Shown here: positions 4,039 through 22,447 of the stretch, piece after piece
Layout: every line of letters starts with the position of its first letter
Numbering within the stretch: the stretch's first letter is position 1
NCBI RefSeq assembly: GCF_024655635.1
Contig: NZ_JANLGI010000003.1
Coordinates: 62,001 to 126,000 of the forward strand
DNA: 64,000 nt
Source: Allobosea sp. 47.2.35
GTDB taxonomy: Bacteria > Pseudomonadota > Alphaproteobacteria > Rhizobiales > Beijerinckiaceae
Direction of reading: 5' to 3'
Program-made: the position numbers and the translations under genes
The notes under the pieces: model-generated
What the model saw: the letters and a program-made list of their open reading frames with translations, nothing else
What the model was told of the DNA's origin: nothing
Database searches by the model: none

Positions 4039-4076
4039 CGGCGCATATCGATAACGACCGAACGGCCGGAGCCTCC

Positions 4077-4625
4077 ATGTCACGCCTGCGCTTCAGCACC
4101 GCCCGCGAAGTGTTCGAGACCTATCCCGCGGCCCGTCAGGCCGTGACGATGGCGCCGACCAACGAGCCGCCGCTGGCTTTCCTCGGCCGGTTGGTCAGGG
4201 GTCCTGCACCGACGGAAGCCGCAAGCTTCTGCGCCTTCCTCCTGCCGCGGCGCGAGACCGTGTGGTGGGCGCTCCAGGCGGTGCGCTCGATGCAGCCGCC
4301 CGGCACGCAGGACCCGGGCCTCGCCGCAGCCGAAGCCTGGGTGCGCGAGCCCGGCGACAAGACCCGTTTCGAGGCGCTGCGGCAGGCGCAGACCGGCGAC
4401 AGCGCGCGGCCCGGCACCTTCGTCGCCTGGGCCGCAGGCTATTCCGGCGGCAGCATGTCGGAGAGCCATCCCATCCCGACGCCGTCCGACCTCACCGCGA
4501 AAATGGCCCGGATCGCAGTGCTCAATGCGATCAACTCTCTCCCCGCACGCGAGCGTGAAGGCGCATTGCGTGCTTGCGTCGAAGCATGCATTCGTTTGGC
4601 TGAAGACGATGCCGGCAAGCGCTGA
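4077..4625 (+). CDS. Small T6SS-associated conserved protein (DUF6931-like)
   Basis: This 182-residue soluble protein has no signal peptide or membrane segment. It opens with a segment rich in helix formers (FSTAREVFETYPAARQ), has Trp-rich helices around 60-70 (ETVWWALQAVR) and ends with a charged helix (REREGALRACVEACIRLAED). I recall similar proteins next to T6SS genes in alphaproteobacteria under the name DUF6931, but that is from memory. It begins 38 bases after vgrG behind a GGAG ribosome site and lies upstream of tagH. Position suggests a chaperone, adaptor or regulatory role in VgrG loading or T6SS control; nothing in the sequence shows an enzyme activity. Confidence 0.6.
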   Translation: MSRLRFSTAREVFETYPAARQAVTMAPTNEPPLAFLGRLVRGPAPTEAASFCAFLLPRRETVWWALQAVRSMQPPGTQDPGLAAAEAWVREPGDKTRFEALRQAQTGDSARPGTFVAWAAGYSGGSMSESHPIPTPSDLTAKMARIAVLNAINSLPAREREGALRACVEACIRLAEDDAGKR

Positions 4626-4632
4626 TACGCCA

Positions 4633-4682
4633 GAGCATTTTCAAGCGAAGTGGACACCGGTTCGCGTGAAGAAAATGCGACA
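4633..4682. repeat. REP-like palindromic intergenic element
   Basis: The gap between the small gene and tagH holds an imperfect palindrome whose arms are GCATTTTC at 4635-4642 and GAAAATGC at 4671-4678, around a core with GAAGTGG and CCGGTTCG. Elements of this form are common in intergenic gaps of Rhizobiales genomes. It could fold into an RNA hairpin and so affect read-through from vgrG into tagH. It is the only copy I noticed in the window. Confidence 0.6.
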
Positions 4683-4708
4683 AGCCAATGACCTAAGGCC
4701 GTAACGGG

Positions 4709-6103
4709 ATGTCCGCGATGGCGCTGACACTGACGATCGAGAACCAGACCTCGCTGCCCGATGGCGGCCCGCTCAGCGTGACCACCAGCGGCGGACGCGG
4801 CCTCGATATCGGCCGCGACCAGCATCTCGACTGGGCCTTGCCTGACCCGTCGCGCGCCGTCTCCGGCCGTCATTGCGAGATTCGCTTTCGCGACGGCGGC
4901 TGGTGGCTGCGCGACATCTCGACCAACGGGACCTTCGTCAATGGCGGCGAGCATCGCGTGCAGTCGCCCTACCGGCTCCAGAATGGCGATCGGCTGGAGA
5001 TCGGCCACTACATCATCGCCGTCGCCATCGAAGGCGAGGCCGGGCAAGCCGCCGACGTCGCCCCTGCCCCGCCGCCCTATGCCGCCCAGCCGGAATCGTT
5101 GTGGGCACCGAGCGAGGAGGCCGCCCCGCCGATCCCGCGCCGCGACCTGATGCCCCCAAACCATGCCAGGCCGGTCCATGCCGGCTTCATCGACTGGGCG
5201 GCCGATATCCCGGCTCCGAGCGCCGAGCCAGCACCGCCGCCGCCGGCACGGGACTGGTCTGCGCCAGCGGCGCGGACCGACGAATTCGCCTGGGCACCGC
5301 TCCAGCCGCAGCCCCTTCCCCCGGAGGAGCCTGCTGCGCCGATCCCGACGCCGCGCCGCCCGCCTGCGGGCAGCCCGGCCAGCGCCAGCCCGTGGGACGA
5401 GCCGACCGAGGATACCGTTCCATCCGAGCCGGCTGCCGAACCGCCTCCTGCTCCGGCTGCCTTCGCGCCGCCGCCCTTCCCGGCAGAGCCGGCCGCTCGA
5501 CAGCCCGGCGCGCCCGCGCCGATCTCGATGGGCGAGTTCATGCAGCGCTTCGCCAAGGGCGCCGGCGTCTCACCGCAAGCGCTCGCGACGCAGGACCCCG
5601 GCGCCTTCGCCGAGCAGCTCGGCGGCCTGATGCGCCTGATCGCCGAGGAGCTTAAAGGCCTGCTCGCCGCCCGCGCTGAAACCAAGCGCATCGCCCGCAG
5701 CACCAGCCAGACGATGATCCAGGCGCAGGACAACAACCCGTTGAAATTCTCGCCGACGGTCGACGACGCACTGCAACTGATCTTCGGCCAGCCGCGCAGC
5801 GGCTATCTCGATGCCAAGCGCGCTTTCGACGAGAGCTTCCGCGATCTCAAGGCCCACCAGATCAAGACCTATTCGGCCATGCAGCACGCGCTGAAGATGC
5901 TGGTCGAGGATCTCGATCCGCAGGCGATCAACGAGGCGACGGCACAGGATGGCGGCATCAGTGGGCTGATCGGCTCGCGCAAGGCCAAGATGTGGGAGGC
6001 CTATGTCGCCCGCTGGGACGCCAAGACCGCCCCTTACGAAAACGGCCTCGTCGACGCCTTCATGATCTATTTCGCCGAGTGCTACGACCGCGGCGGGAGA
6101 TGA
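4709..6103 (+). CDS. tagH: T6SS FHA-domain regulator TagH (Fha)
   Basis: TagH reads threonine phosphorylation by PpkA and switches on T6SS assembly at the membrane complex. The 464-residue protein has an FHA domain at about 18-105, with the core motifs GRDQHLDWALPDP, SGRHCEI and STNGTFVNG intact. A long Pro/Ala-rich linker covers about 115-270. The conserved TagH C-terminal domain occupies about 275-462 (MGEFMQRFAKGAGVSP, then FSPTVDDALQLIFG). The kinase and phosphatase partners are encoded about 10 kb downstream. The start at 4709 was kept because it is the first ATG; 4718 is an equally possible start with no effect on the domains. Confidence 0.93.
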   Translation: MSAMALTLTIENQTSLPDGGPLSVTTSGGRGLDIGRDQHLDWALPDPSRAVSGRHCEIRFRDGGWWLRDISTNGTFVNGGEHRVQSPYRLQNGDRLEIGHYIIAVAIEGEAGQAADVAPAPPPYAAQPESLWAPSEEAAPPIPRRDLMPPNHARPVHAGFIDWAADIPAPSAEPAPPPPARDWSAPAARTDEFAWAPLQPQPLPPEEPAAPIPTPRRPPAGSPASASPWDEPTEDTVPSEPAAEPPPAPAAFAPPPFPAEPAARQPGAPAPISMGEFMQRFAKGAGVSPQALATQDPGAFAEQLGGLMRLIAEELKGLLAARAETKRIARSTSQTMIQAQDNNPLKFSPTVDDALQLIFGQPRSGYLDAKRAFDESFRDLKAHQIKTYSAMQHALKMLVEDLDPQAINEATAQDGGISGLIGSRKAKMWEAYVARWDAKTAPYENGLVDAFMIYFAECYDRGGR

Positions 6104-8000: not shown

Positions 8001-8176
8001 GCGAGCCTCCTGCTGGAACGGATTCGTCGCTACGAGGACTGCCGCGAAAATCGCTCGCCCGCATCCTTCAAGTCAATGATGGCGGTGCCTGACCGCCGCG
8101 CTAGCATTCGTTTGGTGACGCTTGGGTAGGACCCGTATAAGCTCGCCCAGCCTGCCGTCGAGTGAGCGAGACCGGA

Positions 8177-9514
8177 ATGTCGTGGTACAGCAAGGTCGTC
8201 TGGTCGGAAGGACTGTTTCTCAGGCCGCATCACTTCCAGCAGAGCGACCGTTATCTCGAAAACCTGCTGGAAAGCCGCGTCAGGACCATCACGCCCTATC
8301 CATGGGGCTTCTCGGTGCTGGAGATCGACCGCGACCTCGCCCAGCAGAGCCGCATCGGCCTGCGCCGCGCCGTCGGCGTGATGCCGGACGGCACGCCCTT
8401 CGCGCTGCCCGATAACAGCCCGCTCCCCGCCGCGATCGAGGTGCCGGAGAACGCCGCCGGCCAGATCGTCTGGCTTTCGCTGCCGCTCGCCGCCGCCAAC
8501 ACGCGCGAGGTCGAGGACACCCTGAACGGCTCGGCCAGCCGCTATGTCCCCGCGAACGAGATGCTGATCGATTCCACCGCCTCGCTGCGGACGGAGGAAG
8601 AGATCGACGTCGCCCATCCGCGCCTGACGCTGGAGCTGCGCAAGACCTCGAAGGCCGGCTATGTCGGCCTCGCGCTCGGCCGCATCCTCGAAGTGCGCGA
8701 CCGCGCCATCCTCTTCGACGAGAAATTCGCCCCACCCGTGCTGGTCTGCTCGGCCTATCCGGTGATCGAGGGCTGGCTCGACCGCGTCATCGGCTGGATC
8801 GACAACAAGCTGGAGGAGCTCGCCCGCTACGCCGCCGATCCGACGGCCGGCGGCGGCCTGCAGAGCGCGGACTATTTCGTGCTCCAGCTCCTCAACCGCA
8901 ACATCCCCGTGCTCAAGCACCTGCGCCGCTCGCGCTTTGTCCATCCCGAGCGATTGTTCTCGACCTTCCTGGCGCTCGCTGGCGAGCTTGCGACCTTCAC
9001 CACGGCAGAGCGTCGCGCCCGCGACTACCCGGCCTACGATCATGACGACCTGGAGAACTGCTTTGCGCCGGTCGTGCGCGACATCCAGGACTTCCTCTCG
9101 GCCAATCTCGGCCGCCGGGCGATCCGGCTGGAGATCGTCGAGCGGGCGCAGAACGCCTTCATGTCGACGATCCGCGACCGCAGCCTCGTGCGCAACGCGA
9201 CGCTGGTGCTGGAAGTGGCGGCGCGCCGGCCTCTGACCGAGATCCAGGCGCAGTTCCCGCAGCTCTTCAAGATCGGCCCCAACACCAAGATGAACGAGAT
9301 CGTCCATGCCCATCTGCCGGGCATCAATCTCGTCCATCTGCCGACGCCGCCGCCGCAGATCCGCGCGCTCACGGATCATGTATACTTCTATCTCGACCGC
9401 ACCTCGCCGCTCTGGCCGGAATTTTCGACGGCGAGTTCGATCGGCATGCATTTTTCCGGTGACTGGCCCGATCTCGAACTCGAGCTCTGGGCCGTTCTGG
9501 AGGGCAGGCGATGA
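8177..9514 (+). CDS. tssK: Type VI secretion baseplate protein TssK
   Basis: TssK joins the cytoplasmic baseplate to the TssJLM membrane complex. The 445-residue protein opens with the hallmark MSWYSKVVWSEGLFLRPHHFQQSDRY and has the central conserved LRKTSKAGYVGLALGRI and the C-terminal GINLVHLPTPPPQIRAL with FYLDRTSPLW. A GTG at 8162 is in frame, but I chose the ATG at 8177 because family members begin at this point. Its stop overlaps the start of tssL by 4 bases (ATGA), so the two are translationally coupled and head the tssK-L-M-tagF-pppA-ppkA operon. Confidence 0.96.
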   Translation: MSWYSKVVWSEGLFLRPHHFQQSDRYLENLLESRVRTITPYPWGFSVLEIDRDLAQQSRIGLRRAVGVMPDGTPFALPDNSPLPAAIEVPENAAGQIVWLSLPLAAANTREVEDTLNGSASRYVPANEMLIDSTASLRTEEEIDVAHPRLTLELRKTSKAGYVGLALGRILEVRDRAILFDEKFAPPVLVCSAYPVIEGWLDRVIGWIDNKLEELARYAADPTAGGGLQSADYFVLQLLNRNIPVLKHLRRSRFVHPERLFSTFLALAGELATFTTAERRARDYPAYDHDDLENCFAPVVRDIQDFLSANLGRRAIRLEIVERAQNAFMSTIRDRSLVRNATLVLEVAARRPLTEIQAQFPQLFKIGPNTKMNEIVHAHLPGINLVHLPTPPPQIRALTDHVYFYLDRTSPLWPEFSTASSIGMHFSGDWPDLELELWAVLEGRR

Positions 9515-10956
9515 GCGATCCGGGTTCGCCCTCAGATCCGTTCGGCCGCTCCGAGCGGACGATCATCAGGCCGAACCCCGGCGGGCGCCGCGCGCCTTTG
9601 CCGCCCGCTCCCGCCGCGCCGGCAGCCGCAGCGCCGCAGGCTGCCCAGCCCTATCAGCCGCCGCAGGTGCCCTCGCCCGGCGTGCCCGGCACCGGCGACG
9701 AATGGATGTCTCAAGCTGCGCCGGTCCCGCAGCGTCAGGCTCCGCCGCCTCCGGCCGGCGGGGGGCAGTCCCTGCCGCGCCGCGACCAGCTGCTGACGCC
9801 GAACGCCAACCCGCTATTGCGCGCGGCCGGCCCGCTCCTGCTGCTGCTCGGGCGCATGCGCGCCAATCTCTCCAACGCGCCCTTCGCCCAGCTCCTCGGG
9901 CAGGTCGGCGAGACGATCGAGGCTTTCGAGCATGAGGTCCGCGCCGCCGGCGTCTCGGCCGATACGGCGCAGATGGCGAAATACGTCATCGCCGCGACCG
10001 CCGACGACATCGTCCAGAACATCCCCGGCGACGACCGCCATGTCTGGACGCAATACAGCATGCTCTCGCGCTTCTTCGGCGAGCGCATCGGCGGCGTGCG
10101 CTTCTTCGAAATGCTCGACAAGGCCAAGGCCGACCCATCGGTCAATTACGACCTGCTCGAACTGATGCATGCCTGCCTGGCGCTGGGCTTCCAGGGTATC
10201 CACCGGACGTCTGCCGGCGGCGCCAACAATCTCCAGATGATCCAGCGCAACCTGTTCGAGACGCTGCGCCGGGTGAAGCAGCCCGACCCCGAATTGTCGC
10301 CGCGCTGGCGTGGGCAGGCGATCGCGCAGGCCGTCGCCGGGTTCAAGGTGCCGGTCTGGTCGGTGGCGGCGATCGCGGCCGTCGCTCTGCTCGGCGTCTA
10401 TTTCGTCTTCCGCGCGCTGCTCGCCGGCAATGCCGAGGCGGCCTCGACCGCGCTGCTCTCGGTCCATCCCAAGGGCGAGATCGGCATCATGCGCAAGGTC
10501 TTCTCGGCCCCGCCGCCGCCTCCCCCGCCTCCGCCGCAGCCGCCCAAGGTCTGCGCCGCCGTGCAGCCGCCGATCGTCTGCCTTGTGACGCCGAACGTCG
10601 TCATCGTCCGCCTCGTCGGCATCACCCTGTTCGAGCCGGGGCAAGCGGCCGTGCGCGCGGAGTTCCAGCCCCTGATCGAGCGCATCGCCGCCGTGCTGGA
10701 GCAGGAGGGCGGTGCGATCAAGGTCGTCGGCCATACCGACAACGTGCCGATCCGCACCGCCCGCTTCCCGTCCAATGTCGAGCTGTCGCAGGCCCGCGCC
10801 AAGGCCGTCGGCGATGGCTTGAAGGCCAAGCTCAGCAAGCCGGACCGGATCGCGACCGAGGGCAAGGGCGCGGATACGCCGATCGCACCCAACACCACCG
10901 CCGACGGACGCGCCCAGAACCGGCGCGTCGAAATCCTGATCCAGCGTCAGAACTAG
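9511..10956 (+). CDS. tssL: Type VI secretion protein TssL with C-terminal OmpA domain (DotU/IcmH family)
   Basis: TssL is an inner-membrane anchor of the T6SS. The 481-residue protein has a Pro/Ala-rich cytoplasmic leader (1-95), a DotU-like domain (about 98-262, with DDIVQNIPGDDRHVWTQYSM and FEMLDK), one membrane helix (about 280-300), a run of prolines (about 330-345) and a periplasmic OmpA-like domain (about 365-480, GHTDNVPIRT, then NRRVEIL). This is the extended form that binds peptidoglycan directly. It overlaps tssK by 4 bases and is followed by tssM after 11 bases. Confidence 0.96.
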   Translation: MSDPGSPSDPFGRSERTIIRPNPGGRRAPLPPAPAAPAAAAPQAAQPYQPPQVPSPGVPGTGDEWMSQAAPVPQRQAPPPPAGGGQSLPRRDQLLTPNANPLLRAAGPLLLLLGRMRANLSNAPFAQLLGQVGETIEAFEHEVRAAGVSADTAQMAKYVIAATADDIVQNIPGDDRHVWTQYSMLSRFFGERIGGVRFFEMLDKAKADPSVNYDLLELMHACLALGFQGIHRTSAGGANNLQMIQRNLFETLRRVKQPDPELSPRWRGQAIAQAVAGFKVPVWSVAAIAAVALLGVYFVFRALLAGNAEAASTALLSVHPKGEIGIMRKVFSAPPPPPPPPPQPPKVCAAVQPPIVCLVTPNVVIVRLVGITLFEPGQAAVRAEFQPLIERIAAVLEQEGGAIKVVGHTDNVPIRTARFPSNVELSQARAKAVGDGLKAKLSKPDRIATEGKGADTPIAPNTTADGRAQNRRVEILIQRQN

Positions 10957-10967
10957 GAGGCAGGACG

Positions 10968-13900
10968 ATGAATCTCGCCACCTGGCTCCGCATCGTGGCC
11001 ATCCTGATCGGCGCGCTCGCGCTCGCGGCGCTGATCTGGTTCGGCGGTCCCTTCGTCGCGTTCGGCGAGGTCCGCCCGTTCGAATCCTTCTGGGTGCGCT
11101 TGGCCGTCGCCGTGCTTCTTTTGGTGGGGGCGCTCGCCTGGATCGCCGTCATCGTCATCCGCCGCCGCAAGGCGACCGCCGCGCTGACCGAGGCTCTTGA
11201 AAAGGAAGAATCGACCGGCGATGGCGCCGCGCTCTCCAGCGCGATGAAGGACGCGCTCGCGACGCTGAAGAGCGCGCGCGGCAAGGGCGGCGATTATCTC
11301 TACGACCTGCCCTGGTACGTGATCATCGGCCCGCCCGGCGCCGGCAAGACGACCGCGCTAGTCAATTCCGGGCTGAAATTCCCGCTCGCGCGCGGCGCGA
11401 CGCCGGCCGCCGTCGCCGGCTCCGGCGGCACCCGCTATTGCGACTGGTGGTTCGCCGAGGACGCAGTGCTGATCGACACCGCCGGCCGCTATACGACGCA
11501 GGACACCGACACCAAGGCCGAGAAGTCGAGCTGGCTCGCCTTCCTCGACCTGCTCAAGACCAATCGCCCGCGCCAACCCATCAACGGCGTGCTCGTCGCG
11601 ATCAGCGTCGAGGACCTGCTGACTTCCTCGCCCGAGGAGATCGCCGCCCATGCCGACGCGATCCGCGCCCGCCTGCTCGAACTGCACGAGCGCCTGAAGG
11701 TCGATTTCCCGGTCTATGCCGTCTTCACCAAAGCCGACCTGATCGCCGGCTTCAACGAATTCTTCGGCCAGTTGACCGAGCCGCAGCGGCGCATGGTCTG
11801 GGGCCATACCTTCCAGACCGCCGACAAGACCCGCAACATGATCGGCGACGTGCCGCCGGAATACGACGCATTGATCGAGCGGCTGAACGAGCGCCTGCCC
11901 GACCGGCTCCAGGACGAGCACAACCCGACCGCCCGCGCCCAGATCTTCGGCTTCCCGAGCCAGATGGCGACGCTGAAGCGCTCCATCGTCGATTTCCTCA
12001 CCCGCGTCTTCGAACCGACGCGCTACCATGCCAATGCGACGCTGCGCGGCTTCTACTTCACCTCGGGCACGCAGGAAGGCACGCCGATCGACCAGTTGAT
12101 CGGCGCGCTATCGCGCAATTTCGGCTCGGACCATGCCGGCGCGGCCTCCTTCTCCGGCAAGGGCAAGAGCTACTTCCTGACCGAGCTGGTCCAGAAGGTC
12201 GTGATCGGCGAATCCGGCTGGGTGTCGACCGATCTCGGCGCCGCCCGCCGCACGACCGCCCTGCGCATCGCCGGCTTCGCCACGGTCGCGTTGCTCTCGC
12301 TCGCCGCGCTCAGCCTGTGGTGGACGAGTTTTTCACGCAACAGCGACCTGGTCACCGCGACCAACTACGGGCTCTCGGATTATCGCAGCGCCGCAGCCCC
12401 GGTTCTGCAGGAGACCACGATCTCCGACCGCAACTTCAGCCGCGTGCTGCCGCTGCTGCACAAGCTCCGGAACATGCCGGCTGGCTATGCCACGAAATCC
12501 GAGCCGACGCCGACGCTCGCCACTTTCGGCCTGAGCCAGCGCGACCGCCTGCAGAACGCGACCGAGATCACCTATCAGCAGGCGCTGGAGCGGATGCTGC
12601 GCTCGCGCATCATCTTCCGGCTGGAGGAGCAGCTCGAGGCCAATGCCAACAATCCCGGCTTCGTCTACGAGGCGCTGAAGGTCTACATGATGGTCGGCGG
12701 CCAGGCGAAGATGGACCGCGATCTCGTGACCTCCTGGATGCGGCTCGACTGGGCCGAGAACCTCTTCCCCGGCCCGGCCAATGCCAAGGGCCGCGAGGCG
12801 CTGGAGGAGCATCTCGCCGCCATGCTCGATCTCGACGAGGGCACGGGCGAGCCGATCGTCAAGCTCAACCAGTCGCTGATCGAGCAGAGCCAGCGCACCT
12901 TGCGCCGCCTCAGCATCGCTGAGCGCGCCTATGAGCTCCTGCGCACGCAGTCCCGCAGCGAGAGCCAGAAGGACTGGGTCGTCTCGCAGCGCGGCGGCTC
13001 CGATGTCCGCCTCGTCTTCGAAGGCGTCACCGGCGAGGATCTCGACCAGATCCGCGTGCCCTATTTCTACACCTATGACGGCTTCCAGAACGCCTTCATC
13101 GCCAAGCTCGGCGATATCGGCGACCAGATCGAGCGCGAGCGCTGGGTGCTCGGCGAAAACCTCGACCAGCAGGCGATCACCGCTCAGTACGCCACGCTCT
13201 TCCCCGACCTGATGAAGCTCTACAGCCGCGACTATGCCGCGAGCTGGCAGCGCATGCTGAAGCGCCTGAAGCTCAGGCCGCTCAACGCCGACAAGCCGCG
13301 CTATGTCGCGCTCAGCGCGATCAGCGCCGCGACCTCCCCCTTCAAGCAGGTGCTGGAGGCGCTCCGCGACGAGACGCAGCTCACCAAGGAGCGCCCCAAC
13401 GCGAAGAAGGCCGTCGCGCAGGCTGCGGCCCAGGCCGCTGCCGATACGCTGGCCCAGCGCGCTAGCAGCGCCTTGAGCCGCCTCGGCACCAATCTGCCGC
13501 TGGCGGCGCCCGGCGTCGACCGCGTGCTGGCGGGTGGCGGGGCCGATACGGCGCTCGGCGCGGATATCGAATCCCAGTTCAAGCCTTTCCACGTCCTCGT
13601 CGACGGCGATCTCGGCCGCCGGCCTGTGGACCAGCTCCTGCAGACCTTCTCGGAGATCAACCAGAACCTCGCGACCGCCGCGACCAACCCGGCGCAGTCT
13701 GCGGCGGCGAATGCCGCGCTCGTGCCGCTGATCGCGACCTTGCGCGCCAATTCCTCGCGCTATCCCGCGCCCTTCGACGGCATGGTCATCCAGGCGGTGA
13801 ATGATTTCGAGGGTGACGCCACCGGCGCGACGGTCGCCCTGCTGCGGCAGGCGCTGGCCGAGCAGGTCACGCGCGTCTGCACCGAGGTGATGAACAACCG

Positions 13901-14603
13901 CTACCCCTTCACCAAGGCGAGCACGCGGGACGTGCCGCTCGCCGATTTCGCCCGGCTCTTCGCGCCCGGCCAGATCATGGACAAGTTCTACAAGGAGCGG
14001 CTGGAGCCCTTCGCCGACACCTCCAAGCCGCAATGGAACTGGCGCATCGACAGCCGGGTGGCGCGCGCGCTTTCGCCGACGACGCTGCGCGAGTTCCAGC
14101 GCGCCAGCGAGATCAAGGAAGCCTTCTTCCCGACCGGCGGCAACCTGCCCTCCTTCCAGATGGTGGTGACGCCGACCGCGCTCTCGGCCGATGCCGCCAA
14201 TGCCAAGCTGGAGATCAACGGCTTCACCGTGACGAGCCAGCAGGGCGTCAACACGCCGACCCCGGTGATGTGGCCGGGCGGCGGCGTCGGCAAGACGGCG
14301 GTGACGCTGACGCTGGGCGGCGGCGGCAACGCGTCCGGCGGCATGTTCAGCGGCGGCTTCTTCTCTTCAGGTCAGCAAGGCGGCGGCGCGCAGGGCGGCG
14401 AAGCCAAGCTGTTCGAGAAGGACGGCACGTGGTCCTTCTTCCGCCTGCTCGATGCCGGCTCGGTGCTGAAGCAGGGCGACAATGTCGGCTTCAACCTGAA
14501 TGCCGGCGGCCGGCAGGTCGGCTATTCCTTCGGCGTCGGCTCGCTCAAGAACCCGCTGATCCTGCCGGCGCTGCGGGAAATCCGCTGCCCCACCGGGATC
14601 TGA
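10968..14603 (+). CDS. tssM: Type VI secretion membrane protein TssM (IcmF)
   Basis: TssM spans the inner membrane and forms the periplasmic channel with TssL and TssJ. At 1211 residues it has the usual family length. Two membrane helices lie at about 8-26 and 43-64 and a third at about 430-450. The cytoplasmic NTPase domain between them has an intact Walker A (GPPGAGKT, 121-128) and the DTAGRY motif near 169. The periplasmic part contains the ImcF-related helical region and the C-terminal beta domain, which ends with Gly-rich loops around 1110-1150. It has a ribosome site (AGGAGGCAGG) just before the ATG and is followed by tagF after 3 bases. Confidence 0.97.
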   Translation: MNLATWLRIVAILIGALALAALIWFGGPFVAFGEVRPFESFWVRLAVAVLLLVGALAWIAVIVIRRRKATAALTEALEKEESTGDGAALSSAMKDALATLKSARGKGGDYLYDLPWYVIIGPPGAGKTTALVNSGLKFPLARGATPAAVAGSGGTRYCDWWFAEDAVLIDTAGRYTTQDTDTKAEKSSWLAFLDLLKTNRPRQPINGVLVAISVEDLLTSSPEEIAAHADAIRARLLELHERLKVDFPVYAVFTKADLIAGFNEFFGQLTEPQRRMVWGHTFQTADKTRNMIGDVPPEYDALIERLNERLPDRLQDEHNPTARAQIFGFPSQMATLKRSIVDFLTRVFEPTRYHANATLRGFYFTSGTQEGTPIDQLIGALSRNFGSDHAGAASFSGKGKSYFLTELVQKVVIGESGWVSTDLGAARRTTALRIAGFATVALLSLAALSLWWTSFSRNSDLVTATNYGLSDYRSAAAPVLQETTISDRNFSRVLPLLHKLRNMPAGYATKSEPTPTLATFGLSQRDRLQNATEITYQQALERMLRSRIIFRLEEQLEANANNPGFVYEALKVYMMVGGQAKMDRDLVTSWMRLDWAENLFPGPANAKGREALEEHLAAMLDLDEGTGEPIVKLNQSLIEQSQRTLRRLSIAERAYELLRTQSRSESQKDWVVSQRGGSDVRLVFEGVTGEDLDQIRVPYFYTYDGFQNAFIAKLGDIGDQIERERWVLGENLDQQAITAQYATLFPDLMKLYSRDYAASWQRMLKRLKLRPLNADKPRYVALSAISAATSPFKQVLEALRDETQLTKERPNAKKAVAQAAAQAAADTLAQRASSALSRLGTNLPLAAPGVDRVLAGGGADTALGADIESQFKPFHVLVDGDLGRRPVDQLLQTFSEINQNLATAATNPAQSAAANAALVPLIATLRANSSRYPAPFDGMVIQAVNDFEGDATGATVALLRQALAEQVTRVCTEVMNNRYPFTKASTRDVPLADFARLFAPGQIMDKFYKERLEPFADTSKPQWNWRIDSRVARALSPTTLREFQRASEIKEAFFPTGGNLPSFQMVVTPTALSADAANAKLEINGFTVTSQQGVNTPTPVMWPGGGVGKTAVTLTLGGGGNASGGMFSGGFFSSGQQGGGAQGGEAKLFEKDGTWSFFRLLDAGSVLKQGDNVGFNLNAGGRQVGYSFGVGSLKNPLILPALREIRCPTGI

Positions 14604-14606
14604 GCC

Positions 14607-15314
14607 TTGAGCTGCGGCCTCTTCGGCAAGCTGCCGGCCAAGCGCGACTTCATCGCGCTGAACGCTCCATCCGGCTTCCTCGGAACTTATGAGAAATGGC
14701 TGCAGGGCGGGCTGACCGCGAGCCGGCTCGAACTCGGCAATCGCTGGCAGGAGGCCTATCTCAACGCCCCGATCTGGCGCTTCTGGCTGGGCGGCGCCCA
14801 TGGCGGGCAGACGGTCGCCGGCGCCTTCATGCCCTCCATCGACGGTGTCGGCCGCTATTTCCCGCTGACGGTCTTCGCTGTCGCCAGCCCGGGAGCCGCG
14901 ATCCCGCCGCCCGAGCTCGACCCGCAGGATCAATGGTTCGAGGCGGTCGAGGATTTCCTGCTCCACGCGCTGGAACCGCAGGCGAGCTACGAGGCCGTGG
15001 CGCAGCGCCTCGCCGCCCTGCCCGTCCCCAACGATCACCATCTCGCCGCGCCGCCCCAGGACATGGTCCGCCTCGCCGACGGCACCATCGTCAGCGCCGC
15101 GATCGCTTCCGGCTTCCCGGAGCGGCTGGCGGCCCTGCGCGTCGAGGATCATGCCCGCGCCTATGCCCATGCATGCTATCTCTGGACGGTCGGCGGCCCG
15201 AATTTCGAGCCGCTGGCCCTGACCGGCCACGCCTTGCCCGATCCCTATCTCTTCGCCGGCCTGCTCACCGGCCGCTTCGACGGCCATCTCGCGCCCGAGC
15301 GCGCCGGATCATGA
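14607..15314 (+). CDS. tagF: T6SS negative regulator TagF (ImpM family)
   Basis: TagF holds the T6SS off after translation; in several species it blocks Fha- or TssL-dependent assembly. The 235-residue protein has the family opening GLFGKLPAKRDFIALNAPSGFLGTYEKWLQ and the central WLGGAHGGQTVAGAFMPSIDGVGRYFPL. It starts at a TTG at 14607, three bases after the tssM stop, and no in-frame ATG lies near the conserved beginning. In Agrobacterium this domain is fused to the phosphatase; here the phosphatase is a separate gene 10 bases downstream. Confidence 0.92.
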   Translation: MSCGLFGKLPAKRDFIALNAPSGFLGTYEKWLQGGLTASRLELGNRWQEAYLNAPIWRFWLGGAHGGQTVAGAFMPSIDGVGRYFPLTVFAVASPGAAIPPPELDPQDQWFEAVEDFLLHALEPQASYEAVAQRLAALPVPNDHHLAAPPQDMVRLADGTIVSAAIASGFPERLAALRVEDHARAYAHACYLWTVGGPNFEPLALTGHALPDPYLFAGLLTGRFDGHLAPERAGS

Positions 15315-15324
15315 GGGCGATGCC

Positions 15325-16134
15325 ATGAACGACGCCCCGCGCCGGAACCCGGATTTCGAGACCGGCTGCATCAGCCATACCGGCAAGGTCCGCACGGCCA
15401 ACGAGGACAATTTCATCCTGCGCCCGGAGATCGGCCTCTGGGCCGTCGCCGACGGCATGGGCGGGCACGAGAACGGCGCGCTCGCCAGCGCAACCGTGGT
15501 CGCGGCGCTGGAGGCGGTCGGCGCCGCCGACTCCGCGCCCGATCTGCTCGCCATGCTCGAAGCGGGTGTGCTCAAGGCCAACGAGGATCTCCGCGCCGAG
15601 ATCGACAAGCGCGGCGCGACCATGGGCGCGACATTGGTCTGCCTCCTGATCCACCAGCGTCATTTCGCCTGCCTTTGGTCGGGCGACAGCCGCATCTACC
15701 TGATCCGCGGCGGCATCATCGCGCAGGTCTCGCGCGACCATACCGAGGTCCAGGACATGGTCGATCGCGGCCTGCTCACCGCCGAGGAGGCGAAGCGCTC
15801 GCCGCGCCGGCACATCATCACCCATGCGATCGGCGTCCACGAGACGCCCGAACTCGATCTCGAAAACGGCGAGATCGCCGATGGCGACGCCTTCCTGCTC
15901 TGCTCGGACGGATTGACCGAGCATGTCACTGACGCCGAGATCCTGGCTGCCGTCCAGGCCGGCAGCGCGCAGGCCGCCTGCGACGCCCTGCTGGCGCTGA
16001 CGCTGGAGCGCGGCGCGCGCGACAATGTCACCGTCGTCATCGTGCGCTATCGACAGGGAGCGAGCGAAAGGACACGCTGGATGCCGAACCGGTCCGCACG
16101 GGGGAACGCTACGCCAGGGAGCTCCATGCCATGA
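15325..16134 (+). CDS. pppA: PP2C-type Ser/Thr phosphatase of the T6SS (PppA)
   Basis: PppA removes the phosphate that PpkA puts on the FHA protein and so turns the T6SS down. The 269-residue cytosolic protein keeps the PP2C metal-binding motifs: VRTANEDNF near 22-30, VADGMGGHENG near 42-52, LWSGDSRIYL near 115-124, SDGLTEHV near 193-200 and RDNVTVVIV near 232-240. A C-terminal tail of about 25 residues is unconserved. Its stop overlaps the kinase start by 4 bases, so the opposing enzymes are made together. Confidence 0.93.
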   Translation: MNDAPRRNPDFETGCISHTGKVRTANEDNFILRPEIGLWAVADGMGGHENGALASATVVAALEAVGAADSAPDLLAMLEAGVLKANEDLRAEIDKRGATMGATLVCLLIHQRHFACLWSGDSRIYLIRGGIIAQVSRDHTEVQDMVDRGLLTAEEAKRSPRRHIITHAIGVHETPELDLENGEIADGDAFLLCSDGLTEHVTDAEILAAVQAGSAQAACDALLALTLERGARDNVTVVIVRYRQGASERTRWMPNRSARGNATPGSSMP

Positions 16135-18281
16135 GCGACGACTCCGAGCGCACCGTCTTCGCGCCTCGCGCCAATGCCCGCATCGGCACGAAGCTGAACG
16201 GCATCTACGAGATCGAGAGCCTGATCGCGGTCGGCGGCATGGGCGAGGTCTACAAGGGCCGCGCCATCCAGACCGGCGACGCCGTGGCGATCAAGATGAT
16301 CCGCCCGGACATGGCGCGCGACGACGCCGTGCTCGCCCTGTTCCGGCGCGAGGCGGCGGCCCTGCACAACCTCTATAACGAGGCCATCGTCCGCTACTAC
16401 GTCTTCGCCATCGATCCGGTGAGCGAGACGCCTTATCTCGCGATGGAATTCGTCGACGGCCAGCCGCTCTCCGAGCGCATCCAGCAGGGGCCGCTCAGCG
16501 TCGAGGAAGCCGATATCCTGCGCCAGCGCGTCGGGCCGGGCCTGCATGCCGCACACCGGCTCGGCATCATCCATCGCGATATCTCGCCCGACAATATCAT
16601 CCTGCCGGGTGGCGATCCCTCGCGCGCCAAGATCATCGATTTCGGCATCGCCCGCTCCAGCATTCTGGGCGAAGGCACCGTGATCGGCTCCGGCTTCGCC
16701 GGAAAGTACAACTATGTTTCGCCCGAGCAACTCGGCCTCTATGGCGGCGAAGTCTCAGGCCGCTCGGACATGTACTCCTTCGCGCTGGTACTGGCTCAGG
16801 CCCTGACCGGCCGCGCGATCGACATGGGCGGCAGCCAGGTCGACATCATCGACAAGCGCCGCCGCCTGCCTGATCTCTCCGGCGTCGACGCACGGATTCG
16901 CCCGCTGATCGCGCGCATGCTCGCGCCCGATCCGAAGGATCGCCCCGCCGACATGGCCGAGGTCGCGACCTGGCAAGCGCCCGTTTCAGGCAAGAAGGCT
17001 GCAGCGAAGGCCCCCACCGGCAAGACGACCACCGACAAGCCGGGCCGCTCCCCCCTGCCGCTCGTCGCCGGCATCGCCGCACTCGCGCTGCTGGGGGGCG
17101 GCGGCTTCTACGCCTGGACGACGATTGGCGGCGGGCAGCCGGCGCGCGTCGCGACCAACGATCCGCCGCCGCTCTCGGAACAGCCCTCGGCCAGCACGCC
17201 GACTGCCGCGGTGAACGCGCCGCCTGCCCTGACCGAAGCGCCTGCCGCTAAGGCCCCGCCGGCAAGCGCTCCCCCGGCGCTGACCGAAGCACCGGCGCAG
17301 CCTGCCGCCCCTGCGACGCCGGTGCCTACCGCCGAGAAGTCTCCCGCGCCACCGAGCCCGCCTGCGCCGCCCCCGATGGCACAGCCGCCGGCCGCTCAAA
17401 CGCAAACGGGGCAGCAGCAGCCCCAACGACCACAGCGGCCTTCGCCTGGCTCATCGGGCTCTCAGGTCGCCGTGAACACCGAGCCGCCACAGCAGCAGAC
17501 ACCCGCACGTCCGCCTGCCGCCGAGCCCGTCAAGCCGCCACCGGCCGTGGAGGTGAAACCGCCGGAGCTGCCGCCCGTCGCCGTCGTCATTCCGACGCCG
17601 CCCCTCAGCCCGAGCGTCTCGCCGCCGCAGGTCGCCGCCATGGTGCAGGAGCCCGAGCCGCGCACGCCGGCCGAGCGGATCGAACGCTATGTCCGCGACT
17701 ATGACGGCGGCTCCTGCTTCTTCCTCTGGCCGCTGGAGATCGGCGACCGCAAGGCCACGCTGGAAGGCTTCGGCAGCGCGTCCGCGCCCTTCGTCGCCTT
17801 CGACGGCGCCTTCAAGGCGGCGCAGGGTTTCGAGGCACAGATTCACCTGCGGCCGATGACCGAAGCGCAGTGTCCGATGGTGGATTTCCTGCGCCGGCCC
17901 GGCATCGGCATCGACCGCAGCCCGAAAATCCAGATCGGCTCCTTCAACATGAAGAGCGGCGACATCCTCAACGGCTCCGTCGAGGCCGGCGGCGGTCAGA
18001 ATCTCGATGTCGTGCTGATCGGCGACGACGGCCTGGTCTACAACCTCGCGAGCTTCATGAAGCGCGACGGCGGCAAGGTGACCTTCAACCTCAAGCTCGA
18101 ATCGACCGGCGGCGCCGCACGTCCGCAGACCGTGCTCGCGCTCGTCACCAAGGAGCCGCTGCCGGCGCTCTCCGGCCCCAATCCCTCGCCCGCGAGCGAG
18201 TTTTTCGCCAATCTCAAGCTCGACCTCGCTCGCCAGACCGGCAAGCTGGGGCTGGCGATCAAGTATTTCCGGATCGAGTGA
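16131..18281 (+). CDS. ppkA: Membrane Ser/Thr kinase of the T6SS (PpkA)
   Basis: PpkA phosphorylates TagH/Fha to start secretion. The 716-residue protein has a cytosolic kinase domain at about 24-285: Gly-rich loop VGGMGEVY, VAIK lysine 55, catalytic HRDISPDN at 148-155 and DFG at 170-172. The catalytic loop has Ser where most Ser/Thr kinases have Lys (HRDxKxxN). One membrane helix lies at about 308-328, then a 200-residue Pro/Ala-rich periplasmic linker, then a conserved globular C-terminal domain at about 510-716 that includes two Cys (GGSCFFLWPL and AQCPMVDF) and may sense envelope state. The gene ends the T6SS operon and is followed by a hairpin. Confidence 0.92.
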   Translation: MSDDSERTVFAPRANARIGTKLNGIYEIESLIAVGGMGEVYKGRAIQTGDAVAIKMIRPDMARDDAVLALFRREAAALHNLYNEAIVRYYVFAIDPVSETPYLAMEFVDGQPLSERIQQGPLSVEEADILRQRVGPGLHAAHRLGIIHRDISPDNIILPGGDPSRAKIIDFGIARSSILGEGTVIGSGFAGKYNYVSPEQLGLYGGEVSGRSDMYSFALVLAQALTGRAIDMGGSQVDIIDKRRRLPDLSGVDARIRPLIARMLAPDPKDRPADMAEVATWQAPVSGKKAAAKAPTGKTTTDKPGRSPLPLVAGIAALALLGGGGFYAWTTIGGGQPARVATNDPPPLSEQPSASTPTAAVNAPPALTEAPAAKAPPASAPPALTEAPAQPAAPATPVPTAEKSPAPPSPPAPPPMAQPPAAQTQTGQQQPQRPQRPSPGSSGSQVAVNTEPPQQQTPARPPAAEPVKPPPAVEVKPPELPPVAVVIPTPPLSPSVSPPQVAAMVQEPEPRTPAERIERYVRDYDGGSCFFLWPLEIGDRKATLEGFGSASAPFVAFDGAFKAAQGFEAQIHLRPMTEAQCPMVDFLRRPGIGIDRSPKIQIGSFNMKSGDILNGSVEAGGGQNLDVVLIGDDGLVYNLASFMKRDGGKVTFNLKLESTGGAARPQTVLALVTKEPLPALSGPNPSPASEFFANLKLDLARQTGKLGLAIKYFRIE

Positions 18282-18327: not shown

Positions 18328-18606
18328 TCAATCCTCGCGATAGAGCACGCCCCATTCGTCCTGCCAGACGCCGGCCTTGTCCTCGACCACGATCGGCGCC
18401 CTGATCTCGTTGGCGAGGCGTATCGCGGTGCGGAAGGCGTCCTTCGCGGCCAGCTCGTCGCTGACGAAATCATTGACGAGATGCCCGCCGGCGAGATCGG
18501 CCGGGCAGAGCACATGCCCGAAGGCTTCCCCGCCGCGCTCCGACAGCTTGAGCGTGATCGCATCGGTCGGTGGCTCGTCGACCTGTTCGAAACGGTTGGC
18601 CGGCAT
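18328..18606 (-). CDS. Small conserved cytosolic protein of unknown function
   Basis: This 92-residue acidic protein has no signal peptide or membrane helix. The pattern (ITLKLSERGGEAFGHVLCPADL, then AFRTAIRLANEIRAPIVVEDKAGVWQDEWG) suggests a small alpha/beta fold. It lies 57 bases after the transglycosylase gene on the same strand and converges on ppkA, so it may be the last gene of a three-gene unit with the transglycosylase and the methyltransferase. I do not recognise the family. Confidence 0.6.
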   Translation of the reverse strand: MPANRFEQVDEPPTDAITLKLSERGGEAFGHVLCPADLAGGHLVNDFVSDELAAKDAFRTAIRLANEIRAPIVVEDKAGVWQDEWGVLYRED

Positions 18607-18663: not shown

Positions 18664-20454
18664 TCATTTCTTCGGTTGCGGCCGGGCGATGCCCGGCCCC
18701 TGCCCCGGTCTGACCGCGCTGTAGCGGTCGAGCCTGACCTTGATCATCTCGTTGAACTTCTTGTGGACCTCGGAGACCGTGAGCACCTTGGTCTCGCCGC
18801 CGGCATCCGCGTAGAAGATCGGGCGATTGGCCTGGGCCGGCTTGGGCAGGAGCTCGGCCGCCTTGACGCCCGGTTGCTCCTCCATGGTCTCGATGAAGGT
18901 CTGCGCCGCATCGGGCCCGAGGAAGTGGATCAGGTAGATCTCGCCACCGGTGAGATGGCGCCCCAGCGCCCGCTCCAGCCGAAGCGTGTCGCGCTTCAGC
19001 ATCTCGGCCGCCAGCAACGCCGAGATATAGGGCTCACGCCGCATGTCGAGGATGCGCTGGCGCTGGGCAGCATCGCTCACCACGAACTGCCGGCCTGACT
19101 TGCCGATCAGCTTCGCGTCGGCGGCAAGCCCGTGCTTGGCACCGAACTCGTAGATCACGCCGAGCCAGGTCTGCTCGATGAACTGATAGAGCCCGGTCGC
19201 CGAGGAGGTCTGCGCCTTCACCGCCGTCGAGAACGAGGATTCCTTGTCGGCGACAGCCATCAGCAGGGTCGGATCGGCACCGACGACCTTGCTCGCCCGC
19301 ACGATCAGGTCGACGAGATGGCGGCGGATCTTGATCGGCCCGAAGGTCAGAACCTGATCGGGATCGCCGCTGGAAATCTGCGGCGGCGGCTGCGGCGCAC
19401 CGCTGGACGAGACCGGTCCCGGCGGCGGCCCGCTTTGCATCTTCGGCGGTACCAGCAGGATGTTGGACGGCAACTGCAACTGGTTGACCGGCACCTGCTG
19501 GGTCGGCGCATCCCCCTGCGGCTTGATCGCCGCCAGCGAGGGGTCGTTGTCGAGAGCGAACTGGGCTGCCTGCCGCGCGCCCTCGAGATCCTGCTCGACC
19601 GAGGACAGGATCAGCGAGGGCCGCGCCGGCGCGTCCTTCAGCGCCGGAGCCTCGACCGCCGCGACCTCGATACCGCGCTCCGGCTCCGGCCGCTCCTGCT
19701 GCTGGAGCCGTGCATAGGCCAGCCCAAGGACAGCCGCCGTCACGCAAGCGACGCCGGCCACGACGGCTGCGATCGCCTTGCGCCCGGAAGCCGCCTTTTT
19801 CGGTCGCGCATCGGATGGTTCGGCAACCTCCGAGGGTTTGTCGGGAGAGTTTCGCGAGGGGGCCGGAGAAGCAGCTGCCGGCGGCGGGGCGGAAGATGGA
19901 GCTGGGGTGGCCGCAATCGGCCGCGCCGGAGCGGGTCGCGGTGGCGTCGCCGCCACCTGTCGCGCTGGGGAAGGCGCGACCGGAGCAGGGAATGGGCGCG
20001 AAGGTGGCGGGCTTGCAGGCTCCGGCGTTGCGGCCGCTTCCGGCTTCCCCATCACGAGGCTGCGCAGTTTTTCCAGCCAGCCGGTATCCCCTCGCCCGGC
20101 AAGCGCAGCGAGATCATCGACAAGCCGCTGCGCCATGACCTGCGGCACGCCTGTATCGCGCGCGATCGTGCCGACAGCGCCCTTGCCCAGCTGCTCCGAT
20201 ACCGTCTTCAGCGCGTAGAACCAGAGCTGCAGCGGTGTGCGCCGGCTCTCCAGCGGCGTCCCCTCGGCCGGATGGATCATGTAATTGCAATGCTGGCAGG
20301 CGAAGCCGCGCAACTTCGGGCGCGGCTCGAACTGCGCCGGCCGGCCGCAGGCGGGGCAGGTCATGCTCGTCCCGCCACGGCGCAGGCGCATCAGCGCGGC
20401 GAGGCAAGCCTCCTCCGGAAACAGCGCCTGGAATTGCCGGAAGCGCTCGCTCAT
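18664..20454 (-). CDS. Membrane-anchored lytic transglycosylase with N-terminal transposase-type zinc ribbon
   Basis: The 596-residue protein joins two unrelated parts. Residues 5-115 match the N-terminal zinc ribbon and helical region of IS1595-type transposases: FPEEACLAALMRLRRGG, CPAC (33-36), CQHC (53-56), then EGTPLESRRTPLQLWFYAL. No DDE catalytic domain follows. Residues 140-225 are a Pro/Ala-rich linker, 228-248 a membrane helix, and the periplasmic part carries a transglycosylase fold at about 376-520, with the likely catalytic Glu406 in ADKESSF and SSATGLYQFIEQTWLG after it. The expected activity is cleavage of peptidoglycan glycan strands; the cytosolic ribbon may bind DNA or protein. 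I chose the ATG at 20454 since transposase homology begins there. It follows the methyltransferase gene and faces the T6SS operon. Confidence 0.85.
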   Translation of the reverse strand: MSERFRQFQALFPEEACLAALMRLRRGGTSMTCPACGRPAQFEPRPKLRGFACQHCNYMIHPAEGTPLESRRTPLQLWFYALKTVSEQLGKGAVGTIARDTGVPQVMAQRLVDDLAALAGRGDTGWLEKLRSLVMGKPEAAATPEPASPPPSRPFPAPVAPSPARQVAATPPRPAPARPIAATPAPSSAPPPAAASPAPSRNSPDKPSEVAEPSDARPKKAASGRKAIAAVVAGVACVTAAVLGLAYARLQQQERPEPERGIEVAAVEAPALKDAPARPSLILSSVEQDLEGARQAAQFALDNDPSLAAIKPQGDAPTQQVPVNQLQLPSNILLVPPKMQSGPPPGPVSSSGAPQPPPQISSGDPDQVLTFGPIKIRRHLVDLIVRASKVVGADPTLLMAVADKESSFSTAVKAQTSSATGLYQFIEQTWLGVIYEFGAKHGLAADAKLIGKSGRQFVVSDAAQRQRILDMRREPYISALLAAEMLKRDTLRLERALGRHLTGGEIYLIHFLGPDAAQTFIETMEEQPGVKAAELLPKPAQANRPIFYADAGGETKVLTVSEVHKKFNEMIKVRLDRYSAVRPGQGPGIARPQPKK

Positions 20455-20520: not shown

Positions 20521-22074
20521 TCACGCCCGCAGCAGCCCGAGCCGCGCGACGTCCTTCAGATGCATCGCCACCTCTTCCGCCGTCGCCCGCTCCGGCAGGT
20601 TGGGGACAGTGATGCCGGAGCTCCGGGTCTCGTCGAGGAAGGTGTTCATCGCATCGAGCAGCATGCGCTGGTCGCGCGAGCCGTCGAGAAGACTGACGAA
20701 CTTGCGCACCACGACACCGTCGAGTTGCACGGTGCGGTGGCGCAGATCGGTGACCTCGGCAGAACTCGAGGCCTGCCAGCGCGCGATCTCGCTGGCGGCC
20801 GGCTTCTCGCTGATCGTCGTCGTCAAGGGCGGCGCTTCCAGCCGGATGTCGAGCAAACCCGCCTTGAAGATCGCGATCAGGGCCTCGTCCAGCCGCGCGA
20901 TCTCATGCGCCCGATCCGCCCCCAGTTCATCGGCCACCGCGCGACAGGAGCGTTCGACCAGCTCGTCCCAGGCGATGCTCGCCGGCCAGATCGCGCTGAG
21001 GATTCCGAGCGCCGCCTTGCACAGCGGCAGATCGACCGCGAGCTGCACGCCCTCGTCGAAGCTGAAGCGCTGGACGCCGGGCTTCTCGTCGTCCTTGGCA
21101 GGCGCAAGCCGCGCATTGGCGGCAAGGTGATAAGGCCTGAGCGAGCCGGGCCGAACGCCGCGGCTGAGCGGGACATCGGCACGGCACAGGAGCGTCTCGC
21201 GAAAGGCGCGCCCGATCAGCAGGTCGAGCATCTGCTCGCGCAAGGCCGCCTGCTCCAGCGGCAGCTTGTCGAGCATCTGCTGAGCCGGCCCCTTGGCCGC
21301 GCCGTAGAGGTTCGGGAACGAGGCCTCGGCCAGGAATTGCAGGCCATTCCGCTCCGCGACCGACAGCACCTCATGCAGCGCGAAGGCACGCGCCCCGGGA
21401 TTGAGATCGTCATGATAGAGGACGTTATCGGGCAGTTCGTCGATCTGCTTCAGGCGCTGCCGCAGCGCCGCGCCATGGAAGGTGTCGGGATCGCTCGCTT
21501 CGGCGATCTCCTTCAGGGCGTCGCGGGCGACCCTGACCCGCTCACGCGGGTCATCGATGCCTTTGACGGCGAAGAGCATGACGTCGCGTGCGAGATCCCG
21601 CAGCCGGCAACCGGGCAAGGCATTGTAGCTGACATAGGCCACGCCCTGCGGCGCCAGCAATTGCCCGAACAGCGCGATGATCCGCTCGCGCACCACGTCC
21701 GGCACCCATGAATAGACGCCGTGGACGATGATGTAGTCGAAGGTGCCGATCTCCGCGCCGACCGCGAGGATGTCGCGTTGCTCGAAGGCGAGATTGGAGA
21801 GGCCGAGCTCTGCGGCATTGGCGCTCGCCTGCCGGATCGAGTCACCGCTGAGATCGATGCCGAGGAAGCGGCTGCCGGGGTATTGCGCCGCCATCGGGAT
21901 CAGGTTGCCGCCGCGCCCGCAGCCCAGCTCGAGCACGCGCATCGCGCTCGGCAAGGCTGGGGCCATGCTGTGGAAATGCGCGATGGTCGACAGCCGCGCC
22001 GGATGGGTCTGCGCGAAGGAATGGCCGGGATAGGCCACGGCATCATAGGGATTGATGGCTGAATCGCTCGTCAT
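20521..22074 (-). CDS. SAM-dependent methyltransferase with methyltransferase regulatory domain
   Basis: The 517-residue cytosolic protein starts with NPYDAVAYPGHSFAQTHPARLS, typical of methyltransferases linked to the MethyTransf_Reg domain. Motif I is clear (VLELGCGRGGN, 47-57), followed by FLGIDLSGDSI and a motif around IIVHGVYSWVP. The regulatory domain covers about 210-300 and a helical C-terminal domain runs to the end. Rickettsial lysine methyltransferases acting on outer-membrane proteins share this architecture, so protein lysine methylation is possible; the substrate here is not known. The ATG at 22074 is preferred over an upstream in-frame start. The transglycosylase gene follows after 66 bases on the same strand. 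Confidence 0.85.
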   Translation of the reverse strand: MTSDSAINPYDAVAYPGHSFAQTHPARLSTIAHFHSMAPALPSAMRVLELGCGRGGNLIPMAAQYPGSRFLGIDLSGDSIRQASANAAELGLSNLAFEQRDILAVGAEIGTFDYIIVHGVYSWVPDVVRERIIALFGQLLAPQGVAYVSYNALPGCRLRDLARDVMLFAVKGIDDPRERVRVARDALKEIAEASDPDTFHGAALRQRLKQIDELPDNVLYHDDLNPGARAFALHEVLSVAERNGLQFLAEASFPNLYGAAKGPAQQMLDKLPLEQAALREQMLDLLIGRAFRETLLCRADVPLSRGVRPGSLRPYHLAANARLAPAKDDEKPGVQRFSFDEGVQLAVDLPLCKAALGILSAIWPASIAWDELVERSCRAVADELGADRAHEIARLDEALIAIFKAGLLDIRLEAPPLTTTISEKPAASEIARWQASSSAEVTDLRHRTVQLDGVVVRKFVSLLDGSRDQRMLLDAMNTFLDETRSSGITVPNLPERATAEEVAMHLKDVARLGLLRA

Positions 22075-22447
22075 GCCCGCTGCCGCCCGGCTTCGTCCCC
22101 GGTATTCGAGCCGAAGCACCGCCCCGGCGCTTCATTCATTTGAAGGAGCGCCCGGCCCGACCCTGCTCCTGCGGGACAGCCGGAACAAGCCCTCCGATAC
22201 GCGGGCAATTAAGTCACACCCGCGCGATTACGCTTGAGGAACCGCTGCGGTTGCCGCTGCCAACATCAAGCGAAACCTGGAGAACAGGCCGGTCGGAGCC
22301 GGTTCCGGGTCGTGGTTTCCCAGGGTGATTTAATGTTGCTTCAAGTGCCGGCTTTCTGGGAACCTCCGTCATATGGCGGACGCCCCTTCGAGTCGTGGGC
22401 GTCAGACAGGGTCCAGCGAGTCGTTTGTCTCGCCCAGGGGAAGCAGC
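22075..22447. promoter_or_regulatory. Divergent 373-base intergenic region
   Basis: This gap separates the methyltransferase operon (minus) from the caspase-like gene (plus) and should contain promoters for both. AGGGGAAG at 22436-22443 is a good ribosome site for the ATG at 22448. Several short GC-rich inverted repeats are present around 22280-22385, but none is long enough to name. No gene was seen here. Confidence 0.4.

Follow-up and report, generated by a model that had tools for sequence, protein, structure and literature searches.

Architecture and Conservation of the Fusion Gene

The stretch of DNA analyzed here (the window; 64,000 nucleotides of Allobosea sp. 47.2.35, positions 62,001 to 126,000 of contig NZ_JANLGI010000003.1) contains a cluster of type VI secretion system (T6SS) genes and, facing it, a gene for an unusual fusion protein. 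In this protein a zinc ribbon and a helix-turn-helix (HTH) segment are joined through a linker and one transmembrane (TM) helix to a lytic transglycosylase (LT) domain. The frame is open, begins with ATG and encodes 596 residues. Its parts are listed below.

18664..20454 (-): fusion gene, ribbon-HTH / linker / TM / lytic transglycosylase, 596 aa
20257..20454 (-): residues 1-66, N-terminal helices and zinc ribbon (C33, C36, C53, C56)
20053..20256 (-): residues 67-134, HTH-like, homologous to IS1595 transposases, recognition helix eroded
19789..20052 (-): residues 135-222, Pro/Ala-rich linker, predicted cytosolic, poorly conserved
19720..19776 (-): residues 227-245, single membrane helix
19339..19704 (-): residues 251-372, predicted periplasmic linker including the conserved stretch RPSLILSSVE..
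18760..19338 (-): residues 373-565, gp144-like lytic transglycosylase domain
19240-19242 (-): Glu405, likely catalytic acid

The Pro-rich linker, membrane helix and periplasmic transglycosylase with a likely catalytic Glu that an earlier note on this DNA (the sequence-only reading) had claimed are thus all found in the frame. A structure prediction, proposed in the same note, was run for residues 1-134 using AlphaFold2. The model is confident (mean pLDDT 93, pTM 0.86) and consists of two N-terminal helices, a three-strand ribbon and four helices.

Exactly one hydrophobic segment is present in all 42 fusions compared. In the window protein, five Lys/Arg residues lie on the N-terminal flank of this segment and three on the C-terminal flank. 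The N-terminal flank is the richer one in 33/42 fusions, with a tie in 5/42 and the reverse in 4/42. An N-in topology is predicted from these flank charges and because the enzyme needs a periplasmic location. Neither a signal peptide nor a lipoprotein signal with a lipobox is read at the N-terminus of the fusion, which is the ribbon itself.

The full frame is kept in 30 loci (L002-L031, named records, mostly Bosea) and again in 11 loci of other genera, and the two halves are therefore one gene; a split of two genes by a sequencing error is excluded by these intact frames. The survey of genomes suggested earlier thus returned 30 relatives with the same design, plus the 11 loci in other genera. 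The 30 loci agree with the window protein at a mean identity of 0.71 in the ribbon, 0.57 in the HTH, 0.20 in the linker (averaged over residues 135-226) and 0.88 in the transglycosylase, which is the best-kept part. The ratios of mean dN to mean dS, from ten pairs with the window gene, are 0.20, 0.28, 0.42 and 0.08 for the same parts, respectively. Purifying selection acts on all folded parts of the fusion.

Origin of the Ribbon-HTH Domain

Residues 1-134 were compared with Pfam. PF12760, the IS1595 ribbon, is matched with an E-value of 9.3e-5 and 22.8 bits (cut-off 25.4), and in the same scan the Cas12f1-like family PF07282 (TNB) is matched with 23.2 bits (cut-off 26.3). Both scores are below the cut-off and PF07282 scores as well as PF12760, so that a single-sequence Pfam comparison does not choose between the two families. 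A search of the window's own genome with PF12760 at E ≤ 0.001 did not match the fusion gene and returned one other place only. The fusion orthologue of genome G425 is above the PF12760 cut-off at 25.7 bits.

A profile built from 31 orthologous N-termini was used to survey 397 genomes of the order Hyphomicrobiales, with part of the candidates per genome scored. Among the matches listed, transposase-like frames were obtained with E-values down to 1.4e-25. These frames are mostly about 300 aa long and are aligned across the ribbon and the HTH, roughly residues 6-118; a few are short or cut. Their C-termini look like those of IS1595-type transposases by eye and are presumably DDE domains. Since the profile reaches transposases, homology of the ribbon with transposase zinc ribbons is what the search returned, and the IS1595-type N-terminus proposed by the sequence-only reading is borne out by the profile rather than by the Pfam score. 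The claimed absence of a transposase catalytic domain also holds. No DDE family is found among the Pfam matches of the fusion protein at E ≤ 10, and residues 135-596 are occupied by the linker, the TM helix and the transglycosylase. IS1595 transposases thus share the ribbon and HTH with the fusion and differ from it by a DDE domain and a TAWR recognition motif.

A tree without an outside root was calculated for the N-termini of 19 fusions and 16 transposases, which remained of 42 and 24, respectively, after thinning at 75% identity. The fusions all lie on one side of a branch (support 98/95), which fits a single capture. Most simply, the ribbon-HTH would have been captured once, from an IS1595 transposase.

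No ribbon fusion outside the family of the window organism was recognized among the matches listed from 385 genomes of the class, few of which are from this family. Two long frames considered as further fusions (G652 and G934) were rejected as transposases with a spurious upstream extension. Weaker ribbon matches appear in frames of 409-441 aa in the class survey (G677, G710, G990), and in the order survey in a 576-aa frame (G308, E 0.003) and a 428-aa frame (G374). A second IS1595-type ribbon-HTH is present in the window's own genome at G000:C22:358793-358939 (-), locus L001, in a 243-aa frame with no evident DDE domain by eye. This frame keeps the TAW motif of the recognition helix, in contrast to the fusions, and is possibly another domesticated part of a transposase.

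Loss of the DNA-Reading Surface

The conservation of the ribbon-HTH was compared between fusions and transposases, for which the mean pairwise identities are similar (0.41 and 0.45, respectively). The ribbon is conserved at 2.83 bits per column in the fusions and 2.49 in the transposases. For the HTH turn and recognition helix, residues 102-112, the values are 2.33 and 3.49 bits per column, and this segment shows the largest loss of conservation among 103 windows of 11 columns (rank 1). The helix-minus-ribbon contrast is 1.30 bits (bootstrap 1.09-1.47). Trp109 is present in 24/24 transposases that reach the position (one further row ends earlier) and in 0/42 fusions, none of which has a recognition helix of the TYKTAWRM type. 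The mean net charge decreases from +4.7 in the transposases to +0.9 in the fusions for the HTH (fusion range -3 to +6), and from +9.2 to +5.4 for residues 1-120. The four ribbon cysteines (C33, C36, C53 and C56) are kept in 42/42 fusions.

By these comparisons, the fusions have given up the sequence-reading surface but retained the ribbon-HTH fold. Because the recognition helix is eroded and the four cysteines are retained, sequence-specific reading of DNA by the fusion is unlikely; unspecific DNA binding may occur. The ribbon-HTH could in principle still bind DNA and make the protein a membrane-tethered regulator or a chromosome anchor, by which wall cutting would be coupled to gene state or chromosome position, as the sequence-only reading had envisaged. 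With the recognition helix and most of the HTH charge lost, that coupling is not upheld, and the DNA-binding explanation as a whole is unlikely. Judged from conservation, the ribbon-HTH is most likely a protein-docking or gating module.

The invariance of the four cysteines while other parts drift would also be expected of a ribbon that acts as a sensor of zinc or redox state in the cytosol and thereby controls the enzyme, so that building of the T6SS would depend on metal supply. However, a structural zinc gives the same conservation, and each cysteine is likewise kept in 23 or 24 of 24 transposases. A sensor of this kind is thus considered improbable.

Transglycosylase Domain

The transglycosylase families named as a check by the sequence-only reading were matched. 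The Pfam SLT family is matched at 2e-5, above the cut-off, and the structures of phiKZ gp144 in the Protein Data Bank (PDB; 3bkh and 9xps) are matched with an E-value of about 6e-21 over residues 388-564. Glu405, the Glu of the ES motif, aligns with gp144 and is invariant in 31/31 rows. No VanY peptidase domain is matched in the fusion protein at E ≤ 10. As judged from these matches, the fusion protein probably cuts cell wall glycan. The catalytic domain is of the same type as that of gp144, which is a phage endolysin not known to have a membrane anchor or a comparable ribbon-HTH.

In the LT tree, the domain of the fusion falls inside a 31-row group (99/99) that includes 14 ribbon-less transglycosylases from the same family. 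One clade (100/97) is formed by 16 of the 17 ribbon enzymes. The G425 enzyme is not placed firmly in this tree, and all 17 are held together at only 71/82. The ribbon-less gp144-like enzymes are the nearest relatives of the fusion transglycosylase, from which the fusion differs by its ribbon and, judging from the four with flanking sequence, by its T6SS neighbors. Their frames are mostly 340-460 aa (e.g., L133 and L134), and the N-terminal segment is hydrophobic by eye in L133, L134 and L136.

Association with the Type VI Secretion System

The neighbors of the fusion gene in the window are the following.

2176..6103 (+): vgrG, DUF6931 and fha of the T6SS cluster
4077-4625 (+): DUF6931 gene between vgrG and fha
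8162..16134 (+): tssK, tssL (DotU+OmpA), tssM, tagF, pppA
16131..18281 (+): ppkA-like T6SS kinase gene, convergent with o92 and the fusion gene
18328..18606 (-): o92, conserved 92-aa protein, co-directional with the fusion gene and 57 bp downstream of it
20521..22119 (-): protein-lysine-methyltransferase-like gene, also co-directional, 66 bp upstream of the fusion gene

The gene had been said to face a T6SS operon. The genes tssK-tssL-tssM-tagF-pppA-ppkA are indeed on the forward strand, and the 92-aa gene lies between ppkA and the fusion. A T6SS gene adjoins the fusion in 30/30 Bosea-group loci, namely ppkA in 29 and fha in one (L026), and no T6SS match at E ≤ 1e-5 was obtained around 49 loci that match the transglycosylase alone (L032-L080). 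In locus L026 (Bosea sp. CRIB-10, 10001 to about 17000), the neighbors of the fusion and o92 are fha, DUF6931 and vgrG rather than ppkA; the block thus stayed with the T6SS through a rearrangement.

The family was surveyed in 248 genomes, using PF05936 for TssK and scoring part of the candidates per genome for the fusion. Genomes with the ribbon matched in a frame of 495 aa or more were counted as carriers; none of the remaining ribbon frames listed exceeds 392 aa. TssK is present in 56/248 genomes and the fusion, among the matches listed, in 22/248. On the same basis TssK is found in 20/22 carriers vs 36/226 other genomes (Fisher's test, p 9e-13; related genomes are not independent and kinship is uncorrected). 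Among 16 genomes of the genus, 11 have both TssK and the fusion and 5 have neither, again among the matches listed. In a TssK tree of 51 rows, which covers every one of the 45 TssK genomes outside the genus and three of the 11 within it, a branch with support 94/92, recovered in 96% of bootstrap trees, separates the 12 carrier rows (three of the genus and nine of other genera) from the rest. These rows include L128 and L137, for which the fusion is on another contig, and L138 (G425). In seven loci from other genera ppkA and the fusion share a strand, with ppkA coming first; measured to the first possible start codon of the fusion, the gaps are 3, 3, 4, -4, 83, 91 and 688 bases. The arrangement is convergent in Bosea and in G473/G496, which are from one other genus. 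The T6SS link, an inference in the sequence-only reading, has become a conserved and phylogenetically coherent association (30/30 loci, one TssK clade).

The same survey bears on a simpler explanation, that of an ordinary wall-turnover transglycosylase whose gene is merely beside a T6SS. A profile containing the transglycosylase matches 156/248 genomes among the matches listed, compared with the 56 that have TssK, and many genomes without TssK hold fusion-less relatives. No T6SS gene is present around four ribbon-less copies (L133, L134, L136 and L205; 13-29 kb each), and the fusion of G425 is unlinked to its T6SS. The ribbon form, however, tracks the T6SS in the genus and follows one TssK clade in the family, and a mere neighbor is about as improbable as the zinc or redox sensor.

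The remaining genes of the neighborhood are conserved to different extents. The o92 gene adjoins the fusion in 29/30 Bosea-group loci (exception L024) and is a frame beside ppkA in G425. No match to its product was obtained in Pfam, PHROGs or PADLOC, nor, at E ≤ 1e-4, in nine fusion loci of other genera (L121-L127, L129 and L130; some short), and no export signal is evident by eye. The methyltransferase gene is conserved upstream of the fusion in 29 loci (L012 starts at the fusion). Its product is a methyltransferase with a PKMT C-terminal domain, and the methyltransferase part also matches PADLOC mad2 at 5.5e-21; it is a candidate for T6SS-linked protein methylation. The DUF6931 gene recurs in T6SS clusters of the family. 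A caspase-like peptidase fused to an outer-membrane beta-barrel domain is encoded at 22373-24583 (+), and genes with a caspase domain are found repeatedly close to the family's T6SS loci.

Proposed Function

The fusion protein is proposed, with moderate confidence, to be the dedicated, inner-membrane-anchored transglycosylase of one T6SS branch in a family of Hyphomicrobiales, equipped with a domain for docking or gating on its cytosolic side. Sequence comparison is the basis for its architecture, its ancestry and its association with the T6SS; enzyme activity, the role in T6SS assembly and the function of the ribbon are what we infer beyond this. By analogy with MltE and TagX, the periplasmic domain would cut glycan strands at the sites where the wall has to let the TssJLM complex through. 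The cytosolic ribbon-HTH, derived from an IS1595 transposase and having lost its DNA-recognition helix, would dock to protein or act in gating, and would place or switch on the enzyme at the nascent T6SS. Candidate partners are TssK, TssL, TssM and the Fha or PpkA pathway. A more tentative extension is that the captured domain is a cytosolic switch, such that the wall is opened only where the inner-side machinery of the T6SS is in place. In that case a domain derived from a mobile element would gate a wall enzyme from the inside out, across the membrane; this is possible rather than expected.

Several observations weigh against the proposed T6SS role. The fusion of G425 is about 900 kb from its T6SS. 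In G539 (83% complete) the fusion is present, TssK was not found, and no T6SS gene is on the 15.6-kb contig; in G525 (85% complete) TssK was not found, though ppkA adjoins the fusion. The flank-charge rule for the N-in topology has the ties and reversals given above, and the opening of peptidoglycan is argued from other systems. In addition, 26 rows of the TssK tree (25 genomes) have the same T6SS type without the fusion in the fetched stretch, so that this T6SS type can do without it. None of these 25 genomes is among the 22 carriers, and two of the rows (L144 and L160) have no ppkA in the fetched stretch. A replacement wall hydrolase was not recognized in the fusion-less loci among the 25 listed of 63 matched Pfam families, from 72 proteins of 22 loci (out of 112 downstream proteins picked from 24 loci). 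The LT profile returned nothing there except one match of 26 bits, to a frame of 813 aa in L146.

A T6SS cargo effector, or a factor for self-protection against wall-cutting effectors, would account for the lytic domain, the T6SS linkage and the small gene alongside, but is very unlikely given the membrane anchor in 42/42 fusions, the predicted cytosolic domain, a transglycosylase that is the most conserved part of the protein (typical effectors are not so strongly conserved), and an o92 that, as a would-be immunity gene, shows no evident export signal by eye and has no match at E ≤ 1e-4 in the nine loci of other genera, some of them short.

Comparison with Known Systems

The assembly-associated transglycosylase favored here was compared with the wall enzymes of other T6SSs. 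MltE is the lytic transglycosylase used by the T6SS of enteroaggregative E. coli (PMC10433429, PMC5841429), and a review describes specialized transglycosylases in T6SS clusters as the exception (PMC10433429). MltE resembles the fusion as a lytic transglycosylase tied to T6SS assembly (proposed for the fusion) and is a housekeeping lipoprotein that is not cluster-encoded, whereas the fusion is cluster-linked and inner-membrane anchored with a cytosolic domain. The fusion thus differs from MltE in gene location and in anchoring. MltE is located at the outer membrane.

TagX, known from Acinetobacter and some Betaproteobacteria, is an L,D-endopeptidase of the VanY/Ply500 type that has two TM helices and is encoded in the T6SS cluster; its authors suspect the N-terminal part of restraining activity (PMC5061870). 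On that description, the gene of a membrane-anchored wall enzyme is kept in T6SS clusters in both cases (for the fusion, 30/30 Bosea-group loci), but TagX is an endopeptidase with two TM helices and the fusion an SLT-type transglycosylase with one TM helix and a ribbon-HTH. The fusion protein would thus work like MltE and TagX in the proposed sense, yet is neither of them. To our knowledge, no other T6SS wall enzyme carries a ribbon-HTH part. Among open-licence PMC titles on T6SS, lytic transglycosylase, zinc ribbon, Bosea and IS1595 domestication, none on the fusion protein was found.

For most systems it is an open question how a T6SS complex about 18 nm wide gets through a wall whose pores measure about 2 nm. 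One T6SS branch would have its own transglycosylase bearing a cytosolic handle of transposon origin, which raises the testable question of what recruits or licenses wall cutting at the T6SS site. The ribbon-HTH also clearly exemplifies how a transposase's DNA-binding module has apparently been turned to another use.
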